Positions 16,314 to 36,726 of a stretch of DNA of 39,828 nucleotides are shown one piece after another. The stretch is from Planctomycetota bacterium. Its GTDB lineage: Bacteria > Planctomycetota > Phycisphaerae > FEN-1346 > JAACEH01. Numbering within the stretch: position 1 is the first letter of the stretch; each line of letters begins with the position of its first letter. The notes beneath the pieces are model-generated. The model did not search any database, was not told the origin of the DNA, and saw nothing but the letters and a program-made list of their open reading frames with translations. The stretch lies in contig JAFGPY010000084.1 of the NCBI GenBank assembly GCA_016935955.1, positions 1 to 39,828 of the forward strand, given 5' to 3'. The translations under genes were made by a program, and so were the position numbers.

Positions 16314-18374
16314 TCACAGTCTCGGCTGCGGGGCGCGGTCTTTGGAGGTCAGTTCGACCTTGTGGTCGTCCTCGAACGTGCCGCGAAGGCCGGACTGGCT
16401 CGGCGTTGTGCCGCGGTCGCCGGGGGCGCACTTCCATTGCCACAGGTCGTCGAAGGCCGGACCCTTGACGCGAATCTCGGCCTGGTCGGAGCCCTCGGTG
16501 TCCACCTTCATGTCGATCCGCTCGTGGTTCCACGGGTCAAAGAGCGTGATGACGCGCCAGCGTTTGGTCTTGGCCCGGAGCTGCAACTGCTTCAGACCCA
16601 TCGACTGGCCCTTGTGCTGGGCGCTGGAGGCGCCGATGCGGGCATCGAATGGCTGGTCGGCGGCCACCTTGAACCCGCAATGGGCACCGCCGCTGGAGAG
16701 CACGTAGCGGTTCTTGCCGTCGCCCTCGGCGAGGTCTTTGCCCTGGACGAGCCAGGTGATCTCGGTGTCCTTGTTGCGGGCGGCGATGTCGTCGAGAATG
16801 AGGATGTAGCGCGACTTGACCCAGGCGACGATGCGGCGGTAGCGGACGAGGTCGCTGTAGGCGCCTCCCGCTTCGCCCTCGGCAATGACCACGGGGCCGG
16901 CGTCCTTGAACGAGACCACCCGGGCGGCGCGGTCCATGCCGCCGTAGGGTTGCGTCCACTCGTCGCCCTCGCCCTTCTGCCCGCGGCCGTTGACGAGGAT
17001 CGTATTGTGGCCGCTGGTCAGTTTCTTCTCCGAATAGCCGTCGTCGATGGCCACGGTCTCGCCGTGGGTGTAGATTTCGAACATGTTGGCGTCGGGATCG
17101 TCGTGTGCCACGTTGGCGTAACCGCTCCCGCCATTGCAGAAGGCATTCAGCGTATAGCCGCCGTAGGGACCGCACTTGAACATCATGCCGACGTCATCCT
17201 TCTTCCAACCGTCGCGGGCGTAGGTGATGCCGAGGTCCGGATAGAAGGCGGTCGTCGGGACTTTGTCCAGCGAGCCGCCGGTCAGAGTGGGGTCGTACCA
17301 GATGCAGCCGTACCAGCCGTACTCGAAGAAGCTGCTCTTGCGTTTGTAGGCTTCCATGCCCGCGGCCTGGACGTCGGCCAGCTTGTGCTTGGCGCAGAGC
17401 CGCAACATGCAATGATTGTAGAAGTGCGGGCTGCCGTCCGTGTCGCCGTAGCGGAAGGCGTGGACGAGGTCGGGCGTCATCGACTGAATGCGGAACATCG
17501 GGGCGTTCTTGAAGAACGGGTGGCTAAGGAAGTCGGTGCCCAGGCAACGGTCCGCGGCGTCGAAGGCCATGACCAGGTACTGGAAACCGAAGGCCATGTA
17601 CGACGGCGACTCGTGGCAGGTGCCGTCCTCGGGCAGCCACTTGTGGACGAACTTCAGTTCGTCGGCCATGGCCTTCATGAGCTTGTCGGTGTCGGACGTG
17701 CCCTCGTGGGCTGCAAGCACCGACAGCACCAGTCCGGCGTCGCGATGGTACCGGTGGTTGTTCTGCGGATCGTTCTGCCAGTAGTGCGTGCCGGGGTTCT
17801 TCATCAGGTGGCCGCCCTCGTACATGCGGGTGGCCTGCAGGATGAGCTTGTCGCGGAACTTCTTGCGGAAGTCCTGCGGCAGGTCGTTGAAGGTCCAGTC
17901 GTAGGCCAGCGCGGCACCGACCATGACGTTCGCGGCGCCCATGCCGCTGTCCAATTCCGTGCCGGTCTCCCAGTGCTCCAGCTCCAGCAGGATCTTCATG
18001 AACGCCGCCGTCTGTTCCAGCGACTTCTTGTCGCCGGTCAGCACGTAGTGCAGGGCCACGGTCGGCAGCTTCCAGAAGAACTGCCGCTGGGCATCGGTCG
18101 CGTCGGTCAGGAAGGCCTGATTGGTCGGCGGTTGGCTGGCGGCCCCCAGGTACCGCGTCAGGTCGCTGTAGAACGGGTTGCCACTGCGGGTCCGCTGCTT
18201 CATGGCCTCGATGTCGTCCTGCGTGAACAGCAGCCGCGGGTGGCCCTTGGCCGCACCGGACTTGCCGTTGCCGCTTCGTCGCGATTGGGCCAGCGCCGGC
18301 TGAGTCGCGGCGGCAAGCGCCACGGACGCCAGCACGACAGATGCCGTCACCCTGAGAAGGAGATTCCTGACCAT
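16314..18374 (-). CDS. Secreted heparinase II/III-family polysaccharide lyase
   Basis: The 686-residue product has a signal peptide ending near LAQS (about residue 30). HPRLLFTQDDIEAMKQR then opens an all-helical toroid domain (about 45-390) with YWQNDPQNNHRYHRDAGL, where Asn and His match the catalytic groups of this lyase class. A beta-sandwich Hepar_II_III domain follows (about 420-680), with AHDDPDANMFEIYTHGETVAIDDGY and TSGHNTILVNGRGQ. It should cleave uronic-acid polysaccharides in the periplasm or outside the cell. The start ATG 18374 has AAGGGGG close upstream. The gene stands alone, facing away from the cluster at 18.7 kb. The exact substrate (alginate, heparin-like or other) cannot be stated. 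Confidence 0.85.
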   Translation of the reverse strand: MVRNLLLRVTASVVLASVALAAATQPALAQSRRSGNGKSGAAKGHPRLLFTQDDIEAMKQRTRSGNPFYSDLTRYLGAASQPPTNQAFLTDATDAQRQFFWKLPTVALHYVLTGDKKSLEQTAAFMKILLELEHWETGTELDSGMGAANVMVGAALAYDWTFNDLPQDFRKKFRDKLILQATRMYEGGHLMKNPGTHYWQNDPQNNHRYHRDAGLVLSVLAAHEGTSDTDKLMKAMADELKFVHKWLPEDGTCHESPSYMAFGFQYLVMAFDAADRCLGTDFLSHPFFKNAPMFRIQSMTPDLVHAFRYGDTDGSPHFYNHCMLRLCAKHKLADVQAAGMEAYKRKSSFFEYGWYGCIWYDPTLTGGSLDKVPTTAFYPDLGITYARDGWKKDDVGMMFKCGPYGGYTLNAFCNGGSGYANVAHDDPDANMFEIYTHGETVAIDDGYSEKKLTSGHNTILVNGRGQKGEGDEWTQPYGGMDRAARVVSFKDAGPVVIAEGEAGGAYSDLVRYRRIVAWVKSRYILILDDIAARNKDTEITWLVQGKDLAEGDGKNRYVLSSGGAHCGFKVAADQPFDARIGASSAQHKGQSMGLKQLQLRAKTKRWRVITLFDPWNHERIDMKVDTEGSDQAEIRVKGPAFDDLWQWKCAPGDRGTTPSQSGLRGTFEDDHKVELTSKDRAPQPRL

Positions 18375-18584
18375 GATGCCCCCTTTCGCCGGAGAAGGAC
18401 TGCTTGCGTTCTCATTAGAGCAAGATTGCGTGGACAAGGTTCCCGCCGCCTGCCCGCCTGCGGCCGCAACCGACCGGCCGCTGCCTTCTTAAACGCTCGA
18501 AGCCGGCAGATCATTCGCTCTTTTTGGAGTTTCGGCTTGTCGCGGCCACTTCTTTGGGAATGGTCGGTGGTGTAGCTGAGGGCC

Positions 18585-18613
18585 TTGCTGAACATGGACT
18601 CGTGCTGTAAGAT
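18585..18613 (+). promoter_or_regulatory. Candidate promoter of the first methyltransferase gene
   Basis: TTGCTG (18585-18590), a 17-bp spacer and TAAGAT (18608-18613) precede the gene by about 112 nt. The same -10 hexamer at the same spacing recurs before the GH2 gene at 22474. Confidence 0.4.
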
Positions 18614-18725
18614 CGTTGCGGCGGCGACACAGCGGTTCGGATCGGCGTGAGATGGCACTTCCGCCCTCTGGGGAACGTGGGCAAATCCGTCTGTGATGAA
18701 CGAAGCGAATCAGGAGCAGGGCAAG

Positions 18726-19505
18726 ATGCCGAGGCGTAGAGAGCCCAGGTACGTGGAGTATCCGGAGTACTACGACGGGGCACACGCTCAGACGCAGGAC
18801 CTGGAATTCTTCCTGGACTACGCGCGACAGTGCGGCTCGCCGATTCTGGAGTTGGCCTGCGGCACGGGAAGGCTTCTGGTACCCGTGGCGGAAGCGGGCC
18901 ATACGATTACGGGGCTCGACCTGTCGCCGGGCATGCTCTCGATCTGCCGGCGCCGGGTTGAGGACCTTGGACTGTCGGATCGGGCTTCCCTGGTGGAAGC
19001 CGACATGGCGGGTTTCGACTTGCCTGAGAAGGAGTTCGCCCTGGCCTACATTCCACTGCGATCGTTTGCGCACCTGTTCAGCCAGGATCAGCAACTGGCC
19101 TGCCTGCGGAGCGTCCACGACCACCTCCGCTCCGGCGGCGTGTTCATCGTGGTCGCTTTCGCCCTGAACCACGCGGTGGCGGCACGGGAGCCGGAGACTT
19201 CGTTCGGCGTCCTGAAGGAATTCGACGTGGCGGGGCGCGGCCGCGTCGTTCAGAGTCAGCGGTTCCTCGGCTACGACCCGGCGAGTCAGATTCTGCACTT
19301 CGAGTTCAGATTCGAAGAGCGCGATGACCAGGGGCGGACGATCCGCGAGAGCACGGTGCCCATGACGTTGCGATACACGTCGCGCTACGAGCTTCAACTC
19401 CTGATGGAGCGGGTCGGCTTCGAAGTGGTCGATGTGTTCCGCGACTACGAAAGACGGCCGTTCAACGGAAAGTACGAGATTATCATGGTCGGACGAAAGG
19501 CATAG
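18726..19505 (+). CDS. Class I SAM-dependent methyltransferase
   Basis: This 259-residue protein has the Rossmann methyltransferase motif I LELACGTGRLLVPVAEAG (from about residue 41), then GLDLSPGMLSICRRR as the ribose-binding acidic strand, and a motif II-like EADMAGFDLPEKEFALAYIPLRSFAHL. The C-terminal half (about 160-255) is a substrate domain with RYTSRYELQLLMERVGFEVVDVF. The substrate is unknown; the overall pattern resembles small-molecule methyltransferases. ATG 18726 has AGGAG 9 nt upstream; an in-frame ATG at 18696 would add ten residues. Its stop lies 2 nt before the next gene, so the pair is co-translated. Confidence 0.85.
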   Translation: MPRRREPRYVEYPEYYDGAHAQTQDLEFFLDYARQCGSPILELACGTGRLLVPVAEAGHTITGLDLSPGMLSICRRRVEDLGLSDRASLVEADMAGFDLPEKEFALAYIPLRSFAHLFSQDQQLACLRSVHDHLRSGGVFIVVAFALNHAVAAREPETSFGVLKEFDVAGRGRVVQSQRFLGYDPASQILHFEFRFEERDDQGRTIRESTVPMTLRYTSRYELQLLMERVGFEVVDVFRDYERRPFNGKYEIIMVGRKA

Positions 19506-19507
19506 CC

Positions 19508-20374
19508 GTGCTCATCAGTCTGCATGATCGCGAGAGGATCGAGGCGTATCTGCGGCAGGAGCCGTACGTGAACATCTACAGCCTGGGCGACCTGGACGGG
19601 GGGCAATGGCCGTTTACGGTCTGGTACGGCCTGGCCGACGGCGATCGGCTGCGGGCCCTGGCCCTGGTGTACACGCGGCTGTCCACGCCGACGCTGCTGG
19701 CCCTGGGCGGCGCGGGCGACCAGGAACACCTGCGGCGGCTCGTCGGTGAGATGGCACCCCTGCTGCCGCCGCGGCTGTATGCCCACCTGAACCTCGGGCT
19801 GAGCGACATTCTGGCCGCGCGGTACGACGTCGCGTCGCGCGGCGAGCACTACAAGATGGCCTGGGCCGACCGGTCGCGGCTCGGGGGCGTGGCGACGGAC
19901 GGCGTCGTGCGGCTCGGGCCGGGCGACGCCGAGGAACTGTCGGCCTTCTACGCCGCCAGCTATCCCGAGGCGTTCTTCGAGCCGTGCATGCTCGAGGCGG
20001 GTCCCTGGATGGCCGTGCGCGACCGGGCCGGGCGGCTGCTGAGCGTCGCGGGGCTGCACGTCTGCTCGGTGGCCTACCGCGTCGCGGCCGCGGGCACGAT
20101 CGCGACGCATCCGGACCATCGAAGCCGGGGGCACGCCCGCGCGGCCGTGGCGGGGCTGTGTCGCGAACTCGAGGGAACGATGGACCACATCGGTCTGAAC
20201 GTCAAGGCCGACAACACGGCCGCCATCCGATGCTACCGGGCACTGGGTTTCGAGCCTGTGGCCTCGTACGAGGAGTGCCTGCTGACGCTGCGCGATAATG
20301 CGACAAAATATGGACGATCGCCGGAAAAATCCTGCCGGAAAAATCCTGTTGACATTCAGGGACACGAGTATTAG
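19508..20374 (+). CDS. GNAT-family N-acetyltransferase with a repeat-derived tail
   Basis: This 288-residue protein has an N-terminal half that resembles a degenerate GNAT fold (LRQEPYVNIYSLGDLDGG) and a C-terminal active-type GNAT domain. The acetyl-CoA loop is HRSRGHARAAV (RSRGHA at 205-210), and NTAAIRCYRALGFEPV is the typical alpha4/beta7 end. It should transfer an acetyl group to an unknown amine. After LLTLRD the last 25 or so residues are unusual, because that DNA contains a 14-bp tandem duplication and a TTGACA; the natural end was probably near residue 263. The start GTG 19508 uses AAAGG in the end of the preceding gene. Confidence 0.83.
   Translation: MLISLHDRERIEAYLRQEPYVNIYSLGDLDGGQWPFTVWYGLADGDRLRALALVYTRLSTPTLLALGGAGDQEHLRRLVGEMAPLLPPRLYAHLNLGLSDILAARYDVASRGEHYKMAWADRSRLGGVATDGVVRLGPGDAEELSAFYAASYPEAFFEPCMLEAGPWMAVRDRAGRLLSVAGLHVCSVAYRVAAAGTIATHPDHRSRGHARAAVAGLCRELEGTMDHIGLNVKADNTAAIRCYRALGFEPVASYEECLLTLRDNATKYGRSPEKSCRKNPVDIQGHEY
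20321..20348. repeat. Perfect 14-bp tandem duplication
   Basis: CCGGAAAAATCCTG occurs twice in direct succession (20321-20334 and 20335-20348) at the 3' end of the GNAT gene. It is A-rich compared with its surroundings. It adds codons for an aberrant tail and runs straight into TTGACA at 20349. Confidence 0.8.
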
Positions 20375-20377
20375 GCT
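20349..20377 (+). promoter_or_regulatory. Possible promoter of the leader RNA
   Basis: TTGACA (20349-20354) is a perfect -35 hexamer; 17 bp further on TAGGCT is a poor -10, and TATTAG is closer to consensus but only 14 bp away. It lies upstream of the structured leader at 20493-20636. Only the -35 is convincing. Confidence 0.3.
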
Positions 20378-20394
20378 TCGGCTGCAAATCGCGG

Positions 20395-20420
20395 CATGGG
20401 CATCTGCCCATGGGTGGCAC
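20395..20420. repeat. Small palindromic element with GGTGGCAC edge (copy B)
   Basis: CATGGGCA (20395-20402) and TGCCCATG (20405-20412) form a perfect 8-bp stem with a 2-nt spacer, followed directly by GGTGGCAC. Read on the other strand, the edge TGCCACCC is the one seen at copy A (10601-10630). It probably belongs to a dispersed, REP-like family. Confidence 0.55.
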
Positions 20421-20460
20421 GAAAGAAACCATTTTTCAGACTGAGCCCAGAGTGGCGACC

Positions 20461-20574
20461 ATGGAAACTACCCGGAACATCTTCCTCCAGAGGCATCGCG
20501 CGTTTAAGCGCCAGATGCTGAATACGCGCGTCCACGGCGTTATTGCGCCGCGCGCAAGGAACGGGCCCGGATGA
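20461..20574 (+). CDS. Short Arg-rich open frame in the leader (37 codons, doubtful)
   Basis: ATG 20461 opens a 37-codon frame with seven arginines, beginning METTRNIFLQRHRAF and ending ARNGPG, with its stop at 20572-20574. An in-frame ATG at 20410 would give 54 codons. There is no good Shine-Dalgarno. The frame covers both RNA hairpins and segment 1 of the switch. If translated, it would act as a leader peptide whose last codons mask segment 1. It may equally be a chance frame over a structured RNA. Confidence 0.2.
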   Translation: METTRNIFLQRHRAFKRQMLNTRVHGVIAPRARNGPG

Positions 20575-20636
20575 GACATTGACGAAACCCGTGTTTTCCG
20601 GAAGGCCCGTTCGATGAGAACGGGCCTTTTTCTTTT
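20493..20636 (+). ncRNA. Structured leader RNA with mutually exclusive terminator/antiterminator
   Basis: Hairpin 1 pairs GCATCGCGC (20493-20501) with GCGC and GATGC (20508-20518) around GTTTAA. Hairpin 2 pairs GCGCG and CGGCG (20526-20539) with CGCCG and CGCGC (20546-20555) around TTATTG. Segment 1 GAACGGGCC (20559-20567) is identical to segment 3 (20618-20626), and both are complementary to segment 2 GGCCCGTTC (20604-20612). Pairing 1:2, helped by CGGA/TCCG inside, excludes the 2:3 terminator. The next gene, a methyltransferase, starts 40 nt after the T-tract. This is the layout of a transcription attenuator or riboswitch. It matches no known class that I recognise; the sensed signal is unknown. 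Confidence 0.55.
20602..20636 (+). terminator. Intrinsic terminator upstream of the second methyltransferase
   Basis: AAGGCCCGTTC (20602-20612) and GAACGGGCCTT (20618-20628) form a perfect 11-bp stem with loop GATGA, followed by TTTCTTTT. This is a classic Rho-independent terminator. It sits 40 nt before ATG 20676 rather than behind a gene, hence the attenuator reading. Confidence 0.88.
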
Positions 20637-20675
20637 GGTGAAGTCAGGGACGATTGTGGGTGGGAGGTAAGCATC

Positions 20676-21455
20676 ATGGCACTGCAATGGCCGGAAGTAC
20701 TGGACTGGCAACAATGGGCGGATCGGTTCGACCGGATGCAGGATCGGTACCTGGTCGCCCGGGACGAACGCTTTGAGACGGTTGTCCGGATGATCCACGC
20801 CCTGTGGCCGCAACCCGAGAGAGTGCTCGATCTGGGTTGCGGCTCAGGCAGCCTGAGCCTGGCGATCCTGGAGGCGTTTCCGGAATGTCGCCTGGTCGGA
20901 GTCGATCTGGACGAAAGCATGTTGGCCCTGGCGGGGCCGCGGCTGGCTCGCTTCGACGAGCGGGTCCGACTGCTCCGAGCCGACCTGCGCGACCCGGCGT
21001 GGCTTGCGTCGCTCGGCGAGAGTTTCGACGCCGTCGTGTCGTCGACGGCCCTGCACTGGCTGTCGCCCGCGAATCTGGCGGCGTTGTACGCCTGCCTGCC
21101 GGGATACATGGCGCCCGGCGGCGTCTTCCTGAACGCCGACCACGTCGGCAGCGTCAGCGCATCCGTCCAGGAGTGCTGGCAGGAGCGTCGCCGCTCCGCG
21201 CAGCAGTCGCAGGAGACTGAGAACGAATCCGATTCGTGGGACGAGTTCTGGCAGGCCTTCGCGGCCGCACTGGGCGTCGACCCGGCGCGGGTCGGCGAGA
21301 ACGTAGTCGCGCCGTGGGAAGGCGTCGAGGCGGGCATGCCGCTGGCGTGGCACTTCGAACGCCTGCGGGACGCCGGGTTCGCCTATGTGGACTGTTTCTG
21401 GCGATGCGACGGGGATGCCGTGTACGGAGGCGTGCTGGATGACAGGGAAGCTTGA
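20676..21455 (+). CDS. Class I SAM-dependent methyltransferase
   Basis: This 259-residue protein has motif I VLDLGCGSGSLSLAILEAFP (from about residue 50), the acidic LVGVDLDESMLALA, and DAVVSSTALHWLSPANLAALY, which resembles trans-aconitate or ubiquinone/menaquinone-type small-molecule methyltransferases. The C-terminal part (about 165-259) contains PWEGVEAGMPLAWHFERLRDAGFAYVDCFWR, the usual acceptor end of that group. ATG 20676 has GGGAGG 8 nt upstream. It is the first gene after the leader RNA and terminator and is followed at 29 nt by a GNAT gene, so both probably depend on read-through or on a promoter nearby. The substrate is unknown. Confidence 0.87.
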   Translation: MALQWPEVLDWQQWADRFDRMQDRYLVARDERFETVVRMIHALWPQPERVLDLGCGSGSLSLAILEAFPECRLVGVDLDESMLALAGPRLARFDERVRLLRADLRDPAWLASLGESFDAVVSSTALHWLSPANLAALYACLPGYMAPGGVFLNADHVGSVSASVQECWQERRRSAQQSQETENESDSWDEFWQAFAAALGVDPARVGENVVAPWEGVEAGMPLAWHFERLRDAGFAYVDCFWRCDGDAVYGGVLDDREA

Positions 21456-21484
21456 GACATCGTGAGGCGGCAGGAGGTGGAATC

Positions 21485-22351
21485 ATGAAAACGACGTTGC
21501 ACGCCACGGCCGGCACGTTTCTGGAAACGGCCGCGCAGTGGCTGAAGGCCGAAGAAGCGGTCAATAATCTGATACTCGGGCTTGCGGCGAACATTTCCGC
21601 CAGGAAGCAGGCAGGGACCGCGCGGCCGTTGATGATGACGGTGGCGGATCGGCGAGGACTGAGGGTTGCGGCACTGATGACCACTCCGCCGCAGCACATT
21701 CAGGTGTACGCGCCGGACGGTCCCGACAAGAAGGCGTTGAGCGTGCTGGCGGGCGCGCTTAAGGCCGGCAGTTACGAGGCGCTTGGGTGCATGGGCCCTG
21801 CGGCAACAGCGAGGGCCTTCGCGGACATCTGGACCGCGCGCACGAGGAAGAAGATTGCGAAGACGAAGGACCTGTTGGCGTACGAGCTTCGGCGGATGCC
21901 CGAAGCGACGGATGTTGCGGGACGGCTGCGGGTCGCGACGGCGACGGACGAGAGCCTGGCGGCCAAGTGGCATCATGCCTTCGTCCTGGAGGCCATAGGC
22001 AACGACGATGCGGCGGCAAGCCATTCCGCGGCTGCACGGGGCATCGCCAACGAGAGCCTGTTCTTCTGGGAGGACGGCGGGCAGCCGGTGTGTCAGGCCT
22101 ACTCGTCGCGGCGCACTCGTCGGGGCATCGCCATCGGGGCGGTCTACACGCCGCCGGAGTTTCGCGGCCGCGGCTACGGCACGGCCTGCGTGACGGCGTT
22201 GAGCCGGCGACAACTCGAAGCAGGACGGGAGTTCTGCTGCCTGTACGCCGACAAGGCCAACCCGACGGCTAACGGCATCTACCGCCGCATCGGTTACGTG
22301 CCGGTGGCGGACATCGGCCAGTACAGCTTCACGGAGGCGACTCACGCCTGA
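21485..22351 (+). CDS. GNAT-family N-acetyltransferase
   Basis: This 288-residue protein has an N-terminal domain (about 1-150) of the kind found in two-part GNATs, and a C-terminal catalytic domain. The latter has AIGAVYTPPEFRGRGYGTACVTAL, with the acetyl-CoA loop RGRGYG at 227-232, and CCLYADKANPTANGIYRRIGYVPV as the closing helix and strand. The acceptor is unknown. ATG 21485 has a near-perfect AGGAGGTGG 4 nt upstream. It is the second gene of the methyltransferase/GNAT pair. Its architecture parallels the GNATs at 19508 and 25150, so they may be old paralogues. Confidence 0.87.
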   Translation: MKTTLHATAGTFLETAAQWLKAEEAVNNLILGLAANISARKQAGTARPLMMTVADRRGLRVAALMTTPPQHIQVYAPDGPDKKALSVLAGALKAGSYEALGCMGPAATARAFADIWTARTRKKIAKTKDLLAYELRRMPEATDVAGRLRVATATDESLAAKWHHAFVLEAIGNDDAAASHSAAARGIANESLFFWEDGGQPVCQAYSSRRTRRGIAIGAVYTPPEFRGRGYGTACVTALSRRQLEAGREFCCLYADKANPTANGIYRRIGYVPVADIGQYSFTEATHA

Positions 22352-22397
22352 TCGTGGCACGGACTGAGCTGATCGGAGCAAGGCGGCCGTCGGCAAC

Positions 22398-22426
22398 TTG
22401 CGTGAGCAGGCGACCACCTGTAAGAT
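22398..22426 (+). promoter_or_regulatory. Candidate promoter of the GH2 gene
   Basis: TTGCGT (22398-22403), a 17-bp spacer and TAAGAT (22421-22426) precede ATG 22474 by 47 nt. The spacing and -10 hexamer repeat those before the gene at 18726. Confidence 0.45.
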
Positions 22427-22473
22427 GGCCGCACGTTGGGGCGGAACGTTTGCAGACGACAGGGGAAGGTCGG

Positions 22474-25020
22474 ATGGCGATGGAACTCAGCAGCGGATGG
22501 CATCTGCAGTCGGCAGCGAAGACCAAGGTTCCGGGCGAGAAGCTTTCCGTTCCGTCCTACAGGCCGAAAGGCTGGACCCCGGCCGTCGTGCCGGGCACGG
22601 TTGTCGGGGCCCTGGTCGCCGACGGTGCGTTGCCGGACCCGATGATCGGCACGAGGATGGAGTCGCTCGAAGGGTTCAAGGGCGGGCAAGACAAGTTGCA
22701 CACGCTTATGCCGATGCCCGAAGACAGTCCGTACCGCCGACCGTGGTGGTTCAGAAACATCTTTCGCTATCCCAAGCCGCAGGCCGGGCGACGCGTGTGG
22801 CTGGACCTCGAAGGGATCAACTACCGTGGCGACGTCTGGCTGAACGGCCGTCGCGTGGGGACTGACGCGCACGTGCGCGGCCTGTTCAAACGGGTGTCGG
22901 TCGACGTGACGCGGCACATCCGTCCGGGGCAAAACTGTCTGGCCCTGGAGATCCACACGGCCGGCCCCGACGACTTCGGCCACACGTGGATCGACTGGGC
23001 GCCCGAGCCGCCGGACAATTCTCTGGGCATCGTTCAGCCGGTGCGTCTGCGCGAGACCGGTTCGGTGGTCATCAAGCACCCGTTCGTGCAGACCGACCTG
23101 GACATCCGAACGCTGAAGAAGGCGTCGCTGACCGTGCGGGCCACGCTGGAGAACACCGGCGATGCGCCGACCGACGTGACGCTGGAAGCGAAGATCGGCT
23201 CGATCCTGGTTCGCAGGAAGGTGAGGCTCGACCGCTGGCAGGAGCGGGAGGTGGTGCTCAACGCCGAGCGGCACCGGGCGCTGACAGTACGCAATCCGCG
23301 CGTCTGGTGGCCCTACCAGTTGGGCAAGCCCGAAATGTACACGTTGCGGCTCACGGTGAAGGTCGGCGCAGCCATTTCGGACCGCAGGGACGTGCCGTTC
23401 GGCATTCGCCGCATTACGTCGCGGCTGAACCGGCACGGGGCGCGGGTCTTCACGGTCAACGGACGGGACCTGCTGATTCGCGGGTCGGCCTGGTCGCCAC
23501 AATTGTTCCTGGGTCAATCGCACCGCAAGGACGAGACGGACGTGGCCTACGCGAAGGCCATGAACCTCAACGCCATCCGCCTGGAAGGCACGCCGGTGTC
23601 GGACGACTTCTGGGACCTGTGCAATCGCGAAGGCGTCCTGGTGCTCCACGGCATGACGTGCGTGAACTACTGGGAGCACACCAAGGATTGGCGCGAGGAG
23701 GACTACCGGTTTGCCCGCGACTCGATGCGGTCGCTGTTCGCCTCGATCCGCAATCACCCGTGCCTGATGGGTTTCATGCTCGGCAGCGACTTCCCGGCCA
23801 CGGCCAGGGTCGAGGCCATGTACCTGAAGCTGCTGGAGGAGATGCCGATCGACGTGCCGGTGACCGGCAACTCGGCCACCAAACACACCGAGCAACTCGG
23901 TCCAACCGGAATGATCCACGGGCCGTACGATTTCGTGCCGCCGGTGTTCTGGTACGAGGGCGGTGCCGTGAGGTTCAACACCGAAGCCGGGCCGGACGTC
24001 TGCCTGCCGCTGATGGAGACGCTTCGCCGGACATTTCCGAACAAGAGCGACCTGAAGGTCAGGAGCCGGGCCTGGAACATGCACTGCGGCCTGCAGGCCT
24101 ACACCAGCACGATTGCGGGCGACCGTGCCCTGGCTCGCCGTTACGGCACCGGCGAAGACGACATCGAAGCGTTCGTCGAGGCCTCGCAGGTGATGGGCTA
24201 CGAGTGCTGGCGAGCGATGTACGAGGCCTGGGTGCGGAACTACCCGAAGGCCACGGGCATCATCGGCTGGATGCTCAATAGTTGCTGGCCGAGCCTGATG
24301 TGGCAGATGTACGACCACCGGAACCATCCGCTGGGCGCCTTCTACGGCACGCAGAAAGCCTGCGAACCGTTGCACGCGCAGTATGCCTACGACGATCACG
24401 GCGTGTGGGCGGTCAACCAGACACTCGACGATTGCGGCGAACTGCGCGTCCGCGCCACGATGGTCGACCTCGAAGGAAAACGGCTCTGGCAAAAGGAGCG
24501 GCGGACGACCGTTGCAGCCCTTGGCCGCAGGAAATGCTTCGCGGCGCCCCCGCCGGCGGAAACGCCGAAGGTCTACTTGCTGGTACTTGAGCTTCACAAG
24601 GGCAACAGTCGCGTGACGCGCAACGTCTACTGGCTGGGCCGCAGGATGGACCGGGTGGACATCGTGCAGAAGGTAGACCAGAAGGCCATGCGGCAACCGC
24701 AGAAGGCGTGTGCCGATTTCCGTGCGCTCGGCAACATGCCTCGGGCGGAAGTCGAGAACAACACGTGTGTCGAGGTCCGGCCGTCGCACTTCCGCCTCAG
24801 GACGCGTATCGTCAACACGTCATCGCGGATCGCGTTCTTCCTGTGGGCACGGGCTTTCAACAAAACGACGGGCGAACTCGTGGCCCCGGTCTGCTGGAAC
24901 GAGAACTGCATCACGTTGCTGCCGGGCGAACGCGCCGAACTGACCGGCACGGTCCCCAAGGCGGGCCTGAAACGCGGTGAACTGGGCGTCAAGGTGGCGG
25001 GCTGGAACACGGGCGGGTGA
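22474..25020 (+). CDS. GH2 exo-beta-D-glucosaminidase-like enzyme (CsxA type)
   Basis: This 848-residue enzyme matches the CsxA branch of GH2, which removes glucosamine from chitosan ends. A galactose-binding-like N-domain has YRGDVWLNGRRVG (about 117-129), followed by immunoglobulin-like domains. The TIM barrel has the acid/base D439 in LGSDF and the nucleophile E504 in FNTEAG, with GPYDFVPPVFWYEG between them, as in CsxA. The C-terminus keeps VTRNVYWLG, CWNENCITLLPGERAELTG and a final WNTGG, all as in CsxA. No signal peptide is seen, so it probably acts on imported oligosaccharides, unlike secreted CsxA. ATG 22474 has AAGG close upstream; ATG 22480 is possible. Related mannosidase or GalN activities cannot be excluded. 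Confidence 0.9.
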   Translation: MAMELSSGWHLQSAAKTKVPGEKLSVPSYRPKGWTPAVVPGTVVGALVADGALPDPMIGTRMESLEGFKGGQDKLHTLMPMPEDSPYRRPWWFRNIFRYPKPQAGRRVWLDLEGINYRGDVWLNGRRVGTDAHVRGLFKRVSVDVTRHIRPGQNCLALEIHTAGPDDFGHTWIDWAPEPPDNSLGIVQPVRLRETGSVVIKHPFVQTDLDIRTLKKASLTVRATLENTGDAPTDVTLEAKIGSILVRRKVRLDRWQEREVVLNAERHRALTVRNPRVWWPYQLGKPEMYTLRLTVKVGAAISDRRDVPFGIRRITSRLNRHGARVFTVNGRDLLIRGSAWSPQLFLGQSHRKDETDVAYAKAMNLNAIRLEGTPVSDDFWDLCNREGVLVLHGMTCVNYWEHTKDWREEDYRFARDSMRSLFASIRNHPCLMGFMLGSDFPATARVEAMYLKLLEEMPIDVPVTGNSATKHTEQLGPTGMIHGPYDFVPPVFWYEGGAVRFNTEAGPDVCLPLMETLRRTFPNKSDLKVRSRAWNMHCGLQAYTSTIAGDRALARRYGTGEDDIEAFVEASQVMGYECWRAMYEAWVRNYPKATGIIGWMLNSCWPSLMWQMYDHRNHPLGAFYGTQKACEPLHAQYAYDDHGVWAVNQTLDDCGELRVRATMVDLEGKRLWQKERRTTVAALGRRKCFAAPPPAETPKVYLLVLELHKGNSRVTRNVYWLGRRMDRVDIVQKVDQKAMRQPQKACADFRALGNMPRAEVENNTCVEVRPSHFRLRTRIVNTSSRIAFFLWARAFNKTTGELVAPVCWNENCITLLPGERAELTGTVPKAGLKRGELGVKVAGWNTGG

Positions 25021-29177: not shown

Positions 29178-29921
29178 ATGACCGAAACAAGACGCTACTA
29201 TCACAGTTACGAGGATCGTTATGCTGCCGTCTACGGCCAAGGCGCAGAGTACTGGACGACCGACCCGGACGAGATTCGCGACACAACGACCAAACTCCAG
29301 GAGTTTCTCGACCGCTGGGCGATCGTGCCGCCACGGGCTCGTGTCTTGGAGTTCGGCTGCGGCGAGGGGCACTTGGCCCGCCACCTGATCGAGCGCGGCT
29401 ACGATTACCGCGGTTTGGACGTGTCGCCCTCGGCTCTGGCCAAGGCCCGCGTGCGCGTGGCCGACCTTGATGCCAGGCCACAGGCCTTCACCCAGGACGA
29501 CGTTACCAGCCTGCCGGCTGCGTGTGATGGAACGTTCGACGCAACGATCGACAATTTCTGCCTGCACATGCTCGTGACTGATGGTGACCGACGGCGCTAC
29601 CTGGCCGCGGTACATCGTGCGTTGAAGCCTGGCGGCATGGCTTACTTCCATGAGAACCACAGCGATCACCCCGTGTCCGGCCCCATGACGACGTTCGAGG
29701 AGTATATGGCCGCCAGCGGATTCCGGCCCGGCGTCGTGGACGAACGGACAGTGTACGTTGACGGCGAGAAACGAACTATTCGGCTGGCTCGCGTGCCGTT
29801 TCGGGCCAAGGACGAGAACGGTTATCACCGTGAGCTGTCCGCGGCTGGCCTCCAGGTGCGGCACTTTGCCCTTGACGGAGCCGGGCACTGCGTATTTCAC
29901 GCCGCACGCCAGACAGAATAG
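29178..29921 (+). CDS. Class I SAM-dependent methyltransferase
   Basis: This 247-residue protein has motif I RVLEFGCGEGHLARHLIERGY (from about residue 55), then YRGLDVSPSALAKAR, then FDATIDNFCLHMLVTDGDRRRYLAAVHRALKPGGMAYFHEN, a standard core for methylation of small molecules. The C-terminal part (about 165-247) includes RTIRLARVPFRAKDENGYHRELSAAGLQ, probably the acceptor side. The substrate is unknown. ATG 29178 has only a weak AGAGAAACAGG upstream. The next gene starts 11 nt after the stop, so they form a pair, repeating the methyltransferase-then-GNAT order seen twice before. Confidence 0.87.
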   Translation: MTETRRYYHSYEDRYAAVYGQGAEYWTTDPDEIRDTTTKLQEFLDRWAIVPPRARVLEFGCGEGHLARHLIERGYDYRGLDVSPSALAKARVRVADLDARPQAFTQDDVTSLPAACDGTFDATIDNFCLHMLVTDGDRRRYLAAVHRALKPGGMAYFHENHSDHPVSGPMTTFEEYMAASGFRPGVVDERTVYVDGEKRTIRLARVPFRAKDENGYHRELSAAGLQVRHFALDGAGHCVFHAARQTE

Positions 29922-29932
29922 GACGAGACGTC

Positions 29933-30475
29933 ATGAGGCCCCTGCTTCGGCACTACGATCAAAAGAAGGACTACGAGAGGTCGGAGGGCTTCGAGGCCAT
30001 GTCGCTGATGGCGGTTTCCGATCCGTTCTCGACGGTGCCGCCGCCCGAAGGCTTCAGCGTAAGGTCGCTGGCCGAGGACAATGACGTTGCCGCCATCAGC
30101 CGGCTGCTCTGGCGCGGATTCGATCATCCCAGCGAACCGCCGCACGGCAGCCCCGAAGGGCGGCGGTTCATGGAGTCGGCCCCGAGCTTCGACAAGGACC
30201 TGAACGTGGCGGCCAAGGCGCCGGACGGCACGTTCGTGTCGTACTGCGGCATGTGGTACGAGCCGGTGCATCGGGTCGCGTACGTCGAGCCCGTCTGCAC
30301 CGATCCGGACTACCGGCGGAAGGGACTGGCCCGGGCGGCCGTGCTCGAAGGCATCCGGCGCTGCGGCCAACGGGGTGCCACGGTGGCTTACGTCGGAGCC
30401 ATCAAGCCGCTCTACCTCTCGCTGGGTTTCCGGCAGGTCTACAACCGCTCCGCGTGGCGGCGCGAATGGTCGTGA
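29933..30475 (+). CDS. GNAT-family N-acetyltransferase, possibly N-terminally truncated
   Basis: This 180-residue protein carries one GNAT domain: FSVRSLAEDNDVAAISRLLWRGF, then VAYVEPVCTDPDYRRKGLARAAV with the acetyl-CoA loop RRKGLA at 128-133, then IKPLYLSLGFRQVYNRSAW. The first 35 residues (HYDQKKDYERSEGFEAM, then DPFSTVPPPEGF) look like the tail and linker of a preceding domain. The other GNATs in the cluster are two-part and 60-110 residues longer. It may thus be a 5'-shortened relative that is still functional, since the catalytic half is intact. The start ATG 29933 follows the methyltransferase stop by 11 nt with a weak AGGACGAG. The acceptor is unknown. Confidence 0.85.
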   Translation: MRPLLRHYDQKKDYERSEGFEAMSLMAVSDPFSTVPPPEGFSVRSLAEDNDVAAISRLLWRGFDHPSEPPHGSPEGRRFMESAPSFDKDLNVAAKAPDGTFVSYCGMWYEPVHRVAYVEPVCTDPDYRRKGLARAAVLEGIRRCGQRGATVAYVGAIKPLYLSLGFRQVYNRSAWRREWS

Positions 30476-33843: not shown

Positions 33844-36726
33844 GTGAACGGCCGAACACACTATCGGGGAACCATCCTGGTCGTGGCCCTGGGCCTGCTT
33901 GCGGCCCTGGCCATCATCGGGGCGACGATGATCAGCGTGGCCCGCGTCGACCGGTTCGCATCGCGGAGTTTCCGCCAGTCGGCCGAACTGGATATGGCCG
34001 TCGACGGGGCGCTGGTCTGGATCGAGAACGAACTGACGAACCAGTACTGGGACAACATCTACTGGACCAAGATCGGCAACAATACCGTCAGCTTCGATGG
34101 CGACGGCGTGATCGACAGCCCGGCACTGGGCGACGGCAAGACGCGTATCGCCGTGGTGCGGCCGGACACGGCCGGGAAGATCGGCGTCACCACCCAGGTC
34201 AATCCGGGCCTTGTCAAGACCAGCGGCGGCACCTCCCTGGGAACCTGGTACAACCTGCCGCTGAAGGCCAACCTGCCGTCGCCGGACAAGTCCGACACAA
34301 CGGGCACGATGGTGCCCGACGGCTGGGTCGTTCCCGCGATGACCTACCGCACGACGCGCAATCGGACGATCGAGGTGGCCCTGACGATGGTGGACCTGGG
34401 GGCTCGGTACAACGTCAACTTCCACGGCGACGCCACCATCGACATCAGCGGGGGCATGGGCCAATCCTACAAGGACCAGGGGTACTACCTGAGCGACGTG
34501 GCCCCGAACTATGCGGCCCTCAGCGGCGAGAGCACCCGCAAGTCCGTGGGCGACATGGAGCTCAAGTGGCGCGACGTGGCTTTCGGCTCCCGCGGGCGCT
34601 GGCTGTCGATGACGAATCCCGACAGCAAGAATCCCGACAAGACCATCAACTTCTTCAATCCCGGCAAGGACAAGCCGTTCCTGGCCGACGACATGATGGA
34701 GTTGCTGAACCTGCGGGGCACCAAGCGGCGTACGCGGTTGGAGTACGTCATGCCCACGACGTTCTCGCGCGACGGCGAGGACTCCAGCGCGTCCGTGGAT
34801 CCGATGTTCTACAAGGCCCTGTACACGTGCTACAGTTGGGTCAGCACGTGCCGTCCGCGGATCAGCAGCGACAACCGCGACGCCGTGGCGCCGAAGGTGG
34901 ACCTGGACAGTTGCACCTGGGAGGAGATTCGCGAGGCCCTGCTGGCCTGCGGGTTCCGTCCCGACGACAAGGACGAGATGATCCTGATGGACCAGATCCT
35001 GGTCAACATCCTGGACTACCGCGACCAGGACGGCCAGCCGTCGTACATCACCAACACGACCAAGGACGGCACGGAGTACACGGTCTGCGGCGTGGACCGC
35101 CAGCCGTTCATCACCGAGTACTATATCAAGAAGGAACGCGCCGACCGCGACGCGGTCGAGATTCCCTTCAGGGTGTTCATCGAGTTGAGCAACCCGTACC
35201 CGAAGCGAACCGGCAACGGCATCACTGAGAAGGGGCTGGAGCGTAGCGAGTCCTACACCAGGATAGAGGTCGGCAAGGCCTCAGGAAAAGTAACGTCGAT
35301 TTCGTTGCCGGAAGAGATTGACCCCGCGCCCGACGACGGCAGTTGCCCGGTCACCATCGCGGTGGTTGACGAGCTGATCATGGTGCCGCGCGACGAAACG
35401 GAACCGATGAAGTACCTGGAACCGGTGGTGCTGTTCGCCAAGGCCAAGGACGTCGAGAACCCCAACGATGCTGACAAGCAGAAGGAAATCGTCATCGACC
35501 GCCTGACGCTCAAGAAGACCGGCGGCAGCTACGAGGAAATCAGCACGGCCGAGTCGTGGCAGCGTATGAACCGCCAGGGCCTCAACAGCATCGGAGAAGA
35601 GGCGGATTTCTTCGCCGGCTGGATCACGGACTACGAGAAGCGAGTCCAGACCTGCTCGGGCGACAGCTTGCGATTCTTCAACGACGTGCTGGCCAACAAG
35701 AAGATGCGGCCGATCGAGAACCGTAGCATGACCAAGAAGGAATGGATCGTCCTGGACAACAGCGGCAATCGCGAGCGAGGGCTTCACAAAGCCGAGGAGT
35801 TGTCGTTCCCGCGAATCGGCGACCTGTGCCGCGTGCTCAGGGTCGGCCACAAGATCGGCAAACAGGCCGACTTCAGCGACTATAAGCCGGTCACCGAAGA
35901 GATCACCGCGGCGACCAACGATGAAGCCGGCTACGTGAGCCCGATGGGATCGACGACCGGAGCCAGGGCGGCCACACTGCTGCAGCGCGTCTTCGACGTC
36001 ATCACAGTCAACAGCCCCTACTACGACGGGGTGGACAACGACGGGGATTTCGACGACAAGGACCGTAACAACGAGATAGACAAGAACGAGCCGGTGTTCG
36101 ATGACAAGGACACCGGGTTCCAGGTGGATGCTGCCGATAACCCGATCGATGCGCTGGGCCCGGAGATTTACGAGCACGGCCGCATCAATCTCCGGACGGC
36201 GCCGCCCGAGGTCGTCCGCGGCCTGCTGCCGATGCAATTGAAGCGAAAGGACAAGAGCCTCTGGACGATCGCCGAAACCTTGGTTTCGACCTCGTCTTCG
36301 TTCAAGCATCCCAGCGATCTTCTGAACGTACAGGTCGCCCCTCCGTGGCGGCTCAAGCACATCTTCACCAAGACGGGGATGAACAACGACAACTGGGACG
36401 ATGACGACAACGGCGCGCCGGACGACTTCGCCGAGCAATGCCATCTGTACACCTTCATAAGCAACTTCGCCACCGTGCGAAGTGACTGTTACGCGGTGTA
36501 CGGAACGGCGAGGATCAAGAGCGACTCGGGACGCACCGAAGGCGTCCGCCGCTTTGTGGCCGTGTTGGACCGCGTGCCGGCCACCGCCTATCCGCCGTTC
36601 AGGTACACAGGCGCGGAGAATCGGGACTTGTCCGAGATCACGAACTTCGACGATGAGACCCTGAAGATGACGCCCAATCCGAAATTCATCCCCGTGCGTC
36701 GCGTGATGCAGGGGTGGATCGACTGA
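33844..36726 (+). CDS. Very large GspK-like minor pseudopilin (960 residues)
   Basis: The protein starts with a short leader and one hydrophobic helix (residues about 9-32, GTILVVALGLLAALAIIGATM) without Glu at +5, which is also true of GspK. YNVNFHGD, the helical stretch CGFRPDDKDEMILMDQILVNILDYRDQDGQPS (split here by description) and YEHGRINLRTAPPEVVRGLLP match GspK features, including its SAM-like bundle. Known GspK proteins are near 320 residues, so this one is about three times larger, with inserted domains around 340-720. Residues 731-755 form an Asp-rich D-x-D-x-D loop that probably binds calcium. It would cap a pseudopilus tip. GTG 33844 has GGAGG 8 nt upstream. Confidence 0.82.
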   Translation: MNGRTHYRGTILVVALGLLAALAIIGATMISVARVDRFASRSFRQSAELDMAVDGALVWIENELTNQYWDNIYWTKIGNNTVSFDGDGVIDSPALGDGKTRIAVVRPDTAGKIGVTTQVNPGLVKTSGGTSLGTWYNLPLKANLPSPDKSDTTGTMVPDGWVVPAMTYRTTRNRTIEVALTMVDLGARYNVNFHGDATIDISGGMGQSYKDQGYYLSDVAPNYAALSGESTRKSVGDMELKWRDVAFGSRGRWLSMTNPDSKNPDKTINFFNPGKDKPFLADDMMELLNLRGTKRRTRLEYVMPTTFSRDGEDSSASVDPMFYKALYTCYSWVSTCRPRISSDNRDAVAPKVDLDSCTWEEIREALLACGFRPDDKDEMILMDQILVNILDYRDQDGQPSYITNTTKDGTEYTVCGVDRQPFITEYYIKKERADRDAVEIPFRVFIELSNPYPKRTGNGITEKGLERSESYTRIEVGKASGKVTSISLPEEIDPAPDDGSCPVTIAVVDELIMVPRDETEPMKYLEPVVLFAKAKDVENPNDADKQKEIVIDRLTLKKTGGSYEEISTAESWQRMNRQGLNSIGEEADFFAGWITDYEKRVQTCSGDSLRFFNDVLANKKMRPIENRSMTKKEWIVLDNSGNRERGLHKAEELSFPRIGDLCRVLRVGHKIGKQADFSDYKPVTEEITAATNDEAGYVSPMGSTTGARAATLLQRVFDVITVNSPYYDGVDNDGDFDDKDRNNEIDKNEPVFDDKDTGFQVDAADNPIDALGPEIYEHGRINLRTAPPEVVRGLLPMQLKRKDKSLWTIAETLVSTSSSFKHPSDLLNVQVAPPWRLKHIFTKTGMNNDNWDDDDNGAPDDFAEQCHLYTFISNFATVRSDCYAVYGTARIKSDSGRTEGVRRFVAVLDRVPATAYPPFRYTGAENRDLSEITNFDDETLKMTPNPKFIPVRRVMQGWID

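Follow-up and report, generated by a model that had tools for sequence, protein, structure and literature searches.

A candidate transcription attenuator upstream of a methyltransferase gene in a Planctomycetota contig

The window analyzed here, namely positions 1–39,828 of contig JAFGPY010000084.1 (39,828 nucleotides, nt) from a Planctomycetota bacterium (assembly GCA_016935955.1), carries at 20461–20636 a leader region that precedes the methyltransferase gene MTase2 and contains an intrinsic terminator together with a second, identical copy of the terminator's 3′ arm. The same-strand gene order around it was found to be MTase1, GNAT1, the leader, MTase2, GNAT2, and a glycoside hydrolase gene. 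Judging from its layout and predicted folding, the region may well be an on/off attenuator upstream of the methyltransferase gene. The genes and features of the locus are as follows.

18693–19505, + strand: MTase1, the upstream methyltransferase (gene listing)
19508–20374, + strand: GNAT1, the upstream GNAT acetyltransferase, whose transcript is expected to enter the terminator
20461–20574, + strand: candidate leader open reading frame (ORF) of 37 amino acids (aa; METTRNIFLQRHRAFKRQMLNTRVHGVIAPRARNGPG) from the ORF listing, its frame being open up to an ATG at 20410 (54 aa)
20492–20519, + strand: hairpin 1, predicted
20526–20555, + strand: hairpin 2, predicted
20559–20567, + strand: segment 1, antiterminator 5′ arm (exact), within the last codons of the candidate leader ORF
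20567–20601, + strand: apical hairpin CCGGA/UCCGG, which extends the stem between segments 1 and 2 and is present alongside the terminator too
20600–20636, + strand: intrinsic terminator, consisting of the stem-loop 20600–20630 (segment 2, loop GATGA, segment 3) and the T-tract 20627–20636
20604–20612, + strand: segment 2, the shared arm, exact reverse complement of segments 1 and 3
20618–20626, + strand: segment 3, terminator 3′ arm, exactly identical to segment 1
20663–20668, + strand: Shine-Dalgarno sequence GGAGGT of MTase2, recognized by eye
20676–21455, + strand: MTase2, class I S-adenosylmethionine-dependent methyltransferase, the first gene after the terminator
21452–22351, + strand: GNAT2, GNAT acetyltransferase (ORF as listed, true start codon uncertain)

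The original prediction had described this region as two compact hairpins followed by three segments, the second of which could pair with either of the other two, and the placement of the segments and the identity of segments 1 and 3 proved right to the base. The two hairpins were likewise predicted where claimed, with shuffled sequences reaching equal stability in 0.6% of 500 cases for hairpin 1 and 5.4% of 500 for hairpin 2 (tested as 20523–20556). The terminator formed by segments 2 and 3 was shown to have the most base pairs in the window by pattern scans (13), and its stem-loop was predicted at −22.3 kcal/mol; in a comparison of predicted energies, 4 of the 22 listed window hairpins were more stable. 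It stands upstream of MTase2 with 39 nt between the end of its T-tract and the ATG at 20676, much as had been proposed. The competing 1:2 stem comprises a 9-bp part and a predicted 4-bp part, in which CGGA (20568–20571) pairs with TCCG (20597–20600), and this extension, also foreseen, appeared in the predicted fold with a GAA bulge (20601–20603) between the two parts. The apical hairpin to which it belongs was equaled in stability in 9% of 500 shuffles.

To follow the competition between these stems, we computed the minimum free energy (MFE) structure of a transcript growing from 20440. Full 1:2 pairing was predicted for transcripts ending at 20612–20624 and 2:3 pairing from 20626 onward; the alternative pairing of the terminator arm is thus predicted to be energetically competitive during transcription. 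For the stretch 20465–20636, the 1:2 state was calculated at −68.7 kcal/mol and the 2:3 state at −72.5 kcal/mol, a gap of 3.8 kcal/mol. When 20557–20588 was blocked, mimicking a ribosome that has reached the end of the leader ORF and sits on its stop codon, the probability of 2:3 pairing in the transcript ending at 20624 rose from 0.000 to 1.000. The exclusive antiterminator/terminator layout is real in the sequence, and its predicted fold switches with transcript growth. This layout and the predicted energetics are the part of an attenuator model that is observed here.

The rarity of the segment 1 copy was assessed by searching the upstream sequence for a segment of at least 9 nt repeating the terminator 3′ arm, using 5000 dinucleotide shuffles for each upstream span; as with all the rarity statistics in this study, the test was post hoc and concerns a feature picked by a reader. 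Such copies arose in 0.36%, 0.36%, and 0.68% of the shuffles for spans of 55, 160, and 224 nt, respectively, while the energy of the 1:2 duplex was equaled or beaten in 1.6% (from 20440) or 2.8% (from 20376) of 3000 shuffles. As a control on real DNA, 118 strong compact terminator-like hairpins were assembled, of which the window contributed 7, E. coli K-12 contributed 36, and other loci the remainder. A copy of at least 9 nt within 70 nt upstream was found for two of them, namely the window element and the E. coli thr attenuator, and an 8-nt copy for two further hairpins.

The thr operon of E. coli is controlled by an attenuator working by alternative RNA pairing. Comparison with its leader, thrL (sequence and annotation from NC_000913.3), suggested that, in geometry, the window element is most like this system. 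In both, segments 1 and 3 are identical and 9 nt long, the offset from segment 2 to segment 3 is 14 nt, the terminator is compact, and segment 1 lies at the stop of a short ORF, the thrL segment 1 (245–253) overlapping the stop codon itself. The last codons of both ORFs read AAC, GGN, two more, and TGA, and the gene starts soon after the T-tract (39 nt in the window, approximately 26 nt in thr). The two differ in the offset from segment 1 to segment 2 (45 nt in the window versus 35 nt in thr) and in the distance from the start of segment 1 to the ORF stop (13 versus 8 nt). The predicted folding was also alike, since the probability of 2:3 pairing in the thr leader at 297 was 0.104 with segment 1 free and 0.957 with it blocked, and reached 1.000 both ways at 301. 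On the other hand, the downstream genes are different, the window element has hairpins inside its leader ORF, and thrL encodes a 21-aa peptide rich in Thr and Ile, a run which the window ORF lacks. The Rfam Thr_leader model (RF00506) aligned with the terminator stretch only, once on each strand, at 14.2 and 14.8 bits against a gathering score of 55.

A second point of comparison is offered by the yxjB/tlrB gene of B. subtilis, where a terminator and a short leader ORF are reported to precede a methyltransferase gene and the position of the ribosome exerts control (PMC6851288). The window too has a terminator and a short ORF ahead of a methyltransferase gene, whereas it differs from that system, as described there, in that an alternative stem is present (PMC6851288). 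MTase2 is further set apart from yxjB/tlrB in that none of its NCBIfam matches among those listed (25 of 32 families) reached the cut-off.

The candidate leader ORF, which was absent from the original prediction, ends in a TGA (20572–20574) 4 nt past segment 1, and its stop would thus place a ribosome on that segment. These characteristics suggest a mode of action in which 20461–20636 would serve as a conditional intrinsic terminator of MTase2-GNAT2. Segment 1 would pair with segment 2 once the latter is made, so that the terminator would be delayed or pre-empted and RNA polymerase would read on; were segment 1 covered, segments 2 and 3 would pair and transcription would stop ahead of MTase2. 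The likeliest cover would be a ribosome finishing the ORF with its stop at 20572–20574. Full translation would accordingly lead to termination. If the ribosome instead stalled far upstream, or if the ORF went untranslated, segment 1 would stay free and read-through would be permitted. Here we infer transcription of the region, translation of the ORF, a kinetic mode of switching, and a cause that stalls the ribosome. A dependence of MTase2 transcription on terminator read-through is probable, because the gap to its start is only 39 nt and consensus scans of both strands of 18000–23000, which may not fit the organism, detected nothing resembling a promoter.

Several results weigh against such an attenuator. 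With segment 1 free, the equilibrium probability of 2:3 pairing in the transcript ending at 20630 was 0.998; since the equilibrium favors the terminator even in this state, any switch must be kinetic. The ratio of the alternative-duplex energy to the terminator energy, 0.89, was ordinary in comparison with the median of about 0.92 over a looser set of 659 hairpins, although the known attenuators were not singled out by this measure either, as their ratios were 1.03 (thr), 0.81 (trp), 0.74 (leu), and 0.44 (his). In the same looser set, a copy of at least 9 nt was found for 8 hairpins. Moreover, among the thr, leu, trp, and his leaders, chosen deliberately as positives, the copy test flagged only thr (9 nt), the copies in leu, trp, and his being 6, 5, and 5 nt long. 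Because trp, his, and leu fail the test, a long copy looks like a specific yet insensitive sign of an attenuator. Stripped of its terminator, the leader did not surpass its shuffles in stability (z = −0.80), which was equaled or exceeded by 100 of the 500.

The ORF itself tells in the same direction. An ORF of at least 20 codons with its stop in 20559–20580 occurred in 21% of 3000 shuffles, and an ATG-initiated one of at least 37 codons ending there in 7.4% of 3000. Its coding score per codon (0.02 in the 37-aa form) lay between those of genes (0.44 ± 0.23) and off-frame pieces (−0.56 or −0.63), which constitutes a weak signal. By eye, no good Shine-Dalgarno sequence was seen before the ATG at 20461 or that at 20410, unlike for MTase2; no homolog candidate of a 40-aa form was found in the protein collection, and the 54-aa form matched no Pfam family. 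Inspection revealed no run of regulatory codons ahead of segment 1, and the 7 Arg among the 37 residues are little above the 13% estimated by hand for such a base composition. Since there is no regulatory codon run and the evidence on translation is indecisive, membership in the ribosome-mediated class is unproven.

A survey of distant homologs also weighs against the attenuator reading. A terminator-like hairpin (at least 6 perfect pairs, followed by 8 nt of which 5 or more are T) within 400 nt upstream of a methyltransferase homolog was found at none of 56 loci with 31–51% identity, the scan covering same-strand matches starting no later than query residue 25, with L126 and L127 outside the set. 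The relatives of MTase2 reached in genomes were distant, at 51% and 48% identity (L001 and L002, among the matches listed) and 51% (L126), and closer proteins showed 62–63% identity (P0002, P0003). The genome samples, of 301 and 400 genomes, seemingly represent one phylum, Chloroflexi, and in the search of the 400 genomes two genomes passed E 1e-40, one of them being G001 itself. Methyltransferase relatives in plasmids reached at best 35% identity, and a search of viral contigs for relatives of the methyltransferase and GNAT2 was unproductive.

Taking all this together, we regard it as an even chance that 20461–20636 functions as an attenuator, by whatever mechanism, and the ribosome-controlled form as a tentative proposal that is more doubtful. 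Both assessments were lowered slightly, the former from a little above even, because of the ordinary energy ratio and the equilibrium favoring the terminator. A more specific version, in which a thr-type attenuator in a poorly sampled lineage governs a methyltransferase-acetyltransferase pair and reports translation or its inhibitor rather than an amino acid, seems improbable. Most documented attenuators come from a small number of well-studied phyla. If real, the element would link the expression of two modification-enzyme genes to translation and would provide a concrete, cheaply testable switch.

The main rival is a plain operon end, that is, an ordinary intrinsic terminator of MTase1-GNAT1 in which segment 1 is a functionless copy arisen by chance or duplication, with MTase2 expressed by leak-through or from an unrecognized promoter nearby. 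This rival arises because transcription of MTase1-GNAT1 would run into the terminator, which begins approximately 225 nt past that same-strand pair. It also accords with the ordinary energy ratio, with the unexceptional stability of the leader, and with the lack of an upstream terminator at the 56 distant homologs, and the shuffle frequencies of 0.4–0.7% for the copy and 1.6–2.8% by energy apply to a feature singled out by a reader within 40 kb. It fits less well with the real-DNA control, in which 110 of the 111 hairpins from outside the window had no copy of at least 9 nt and the sole exception was the thr attenuator, nor does it account for the four extra pairs that extend the 1:2 stem and are unused by the terminator. 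Behind the T-tract there is, in addition, little room for a promoter, and none was predicted. We consider this rival a serious possibility, falling somewhat short of even; were it correct, the element would have little significance.

A metabolite riboswitch, the other half of the original "attenuator or riboswitch" assignment, was found to be quite unlikely. In such a device, a ligand-bound stem closing hairpins 1 and 2 (CCCG at 20471–20474 and UUCCU pairing with the sequences AGGAA and CGGG, located immediately ahead of segment 1 and inside it) would hide segment 1, and the terminator would then form. The closing stem indeed appeared in MFE structures and overlaps segment 1 like an expression platform. 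As an aptamer-type structure, however, it was rejected, being matched in 78%, 83%, and 17% of 1000 shuffles when the 5′ end was set at 20440, 20455, and 20465, respectively, and in shorter transcripts begun at 20440 segment 1 was predicted to pair with 20445–20448 instead. No Rfam family reached its gathering score in the window, and no riboswitch was among the nine matches with E up to 10 in 20370–20690. The attenuator half of that assignment stands on the switching fold and the thr-like geometry, the riboswitch half is unsupported, and we favor the ribosome-controlled attenuator over it.

Least probable of all is a small RNA that either stands alone, with its 3′ end at the terminator, or is released by processing of the GNAT1 3′ end; no promoter was predicted for it. 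What speaks for it is the Rfam model of McaS/IsrA (RF00115), a small RNA known from enteric bacteria, which aligned end to end with 20547–20638 at 32.6 bits (E 3.5e-4) but below the gathering score of 42; further small RNA models aligned weakly, and these other matches centered on the terminator. At six terminator-bearing control loci, searched with stricter filters and effectively a higher bit limit, the best sub-threshold Rfam match was 25.1 bits. The McaS score is unusual against this control and is left unexplained here rather than dismissed. A cyanobacterial control locus (L067, 6733–7129) was separately seen to carry direct repeats of clustered regularly interspaced short palindromic repeats (Rfam CRISPR-DR15, six matches).

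The idea that the leader is a repeated element was also rejected, as the window holds no second copy, just matches of 12–14 nt, while plasmids and phages gave no match and three exact patterns were missing from viral contigs. A recent tandem duplication of MTase1/MTase2 and GNAT1/GNAT2 was rejected on identities of 27% and 34%, respectively, over the matched stretches only. Elsewhere in the window, a 960-aa protein (33844–36726) matched nothing in Pfam at E 0.001, and the 7,997 candidates scored for it included nine relatives besides itself, none of them named. Finally, methyltransferase-GNAT pairs were observed three separate times within this one 40-kb window, at 18693–20374, 20676–22351, and 29178–30475.
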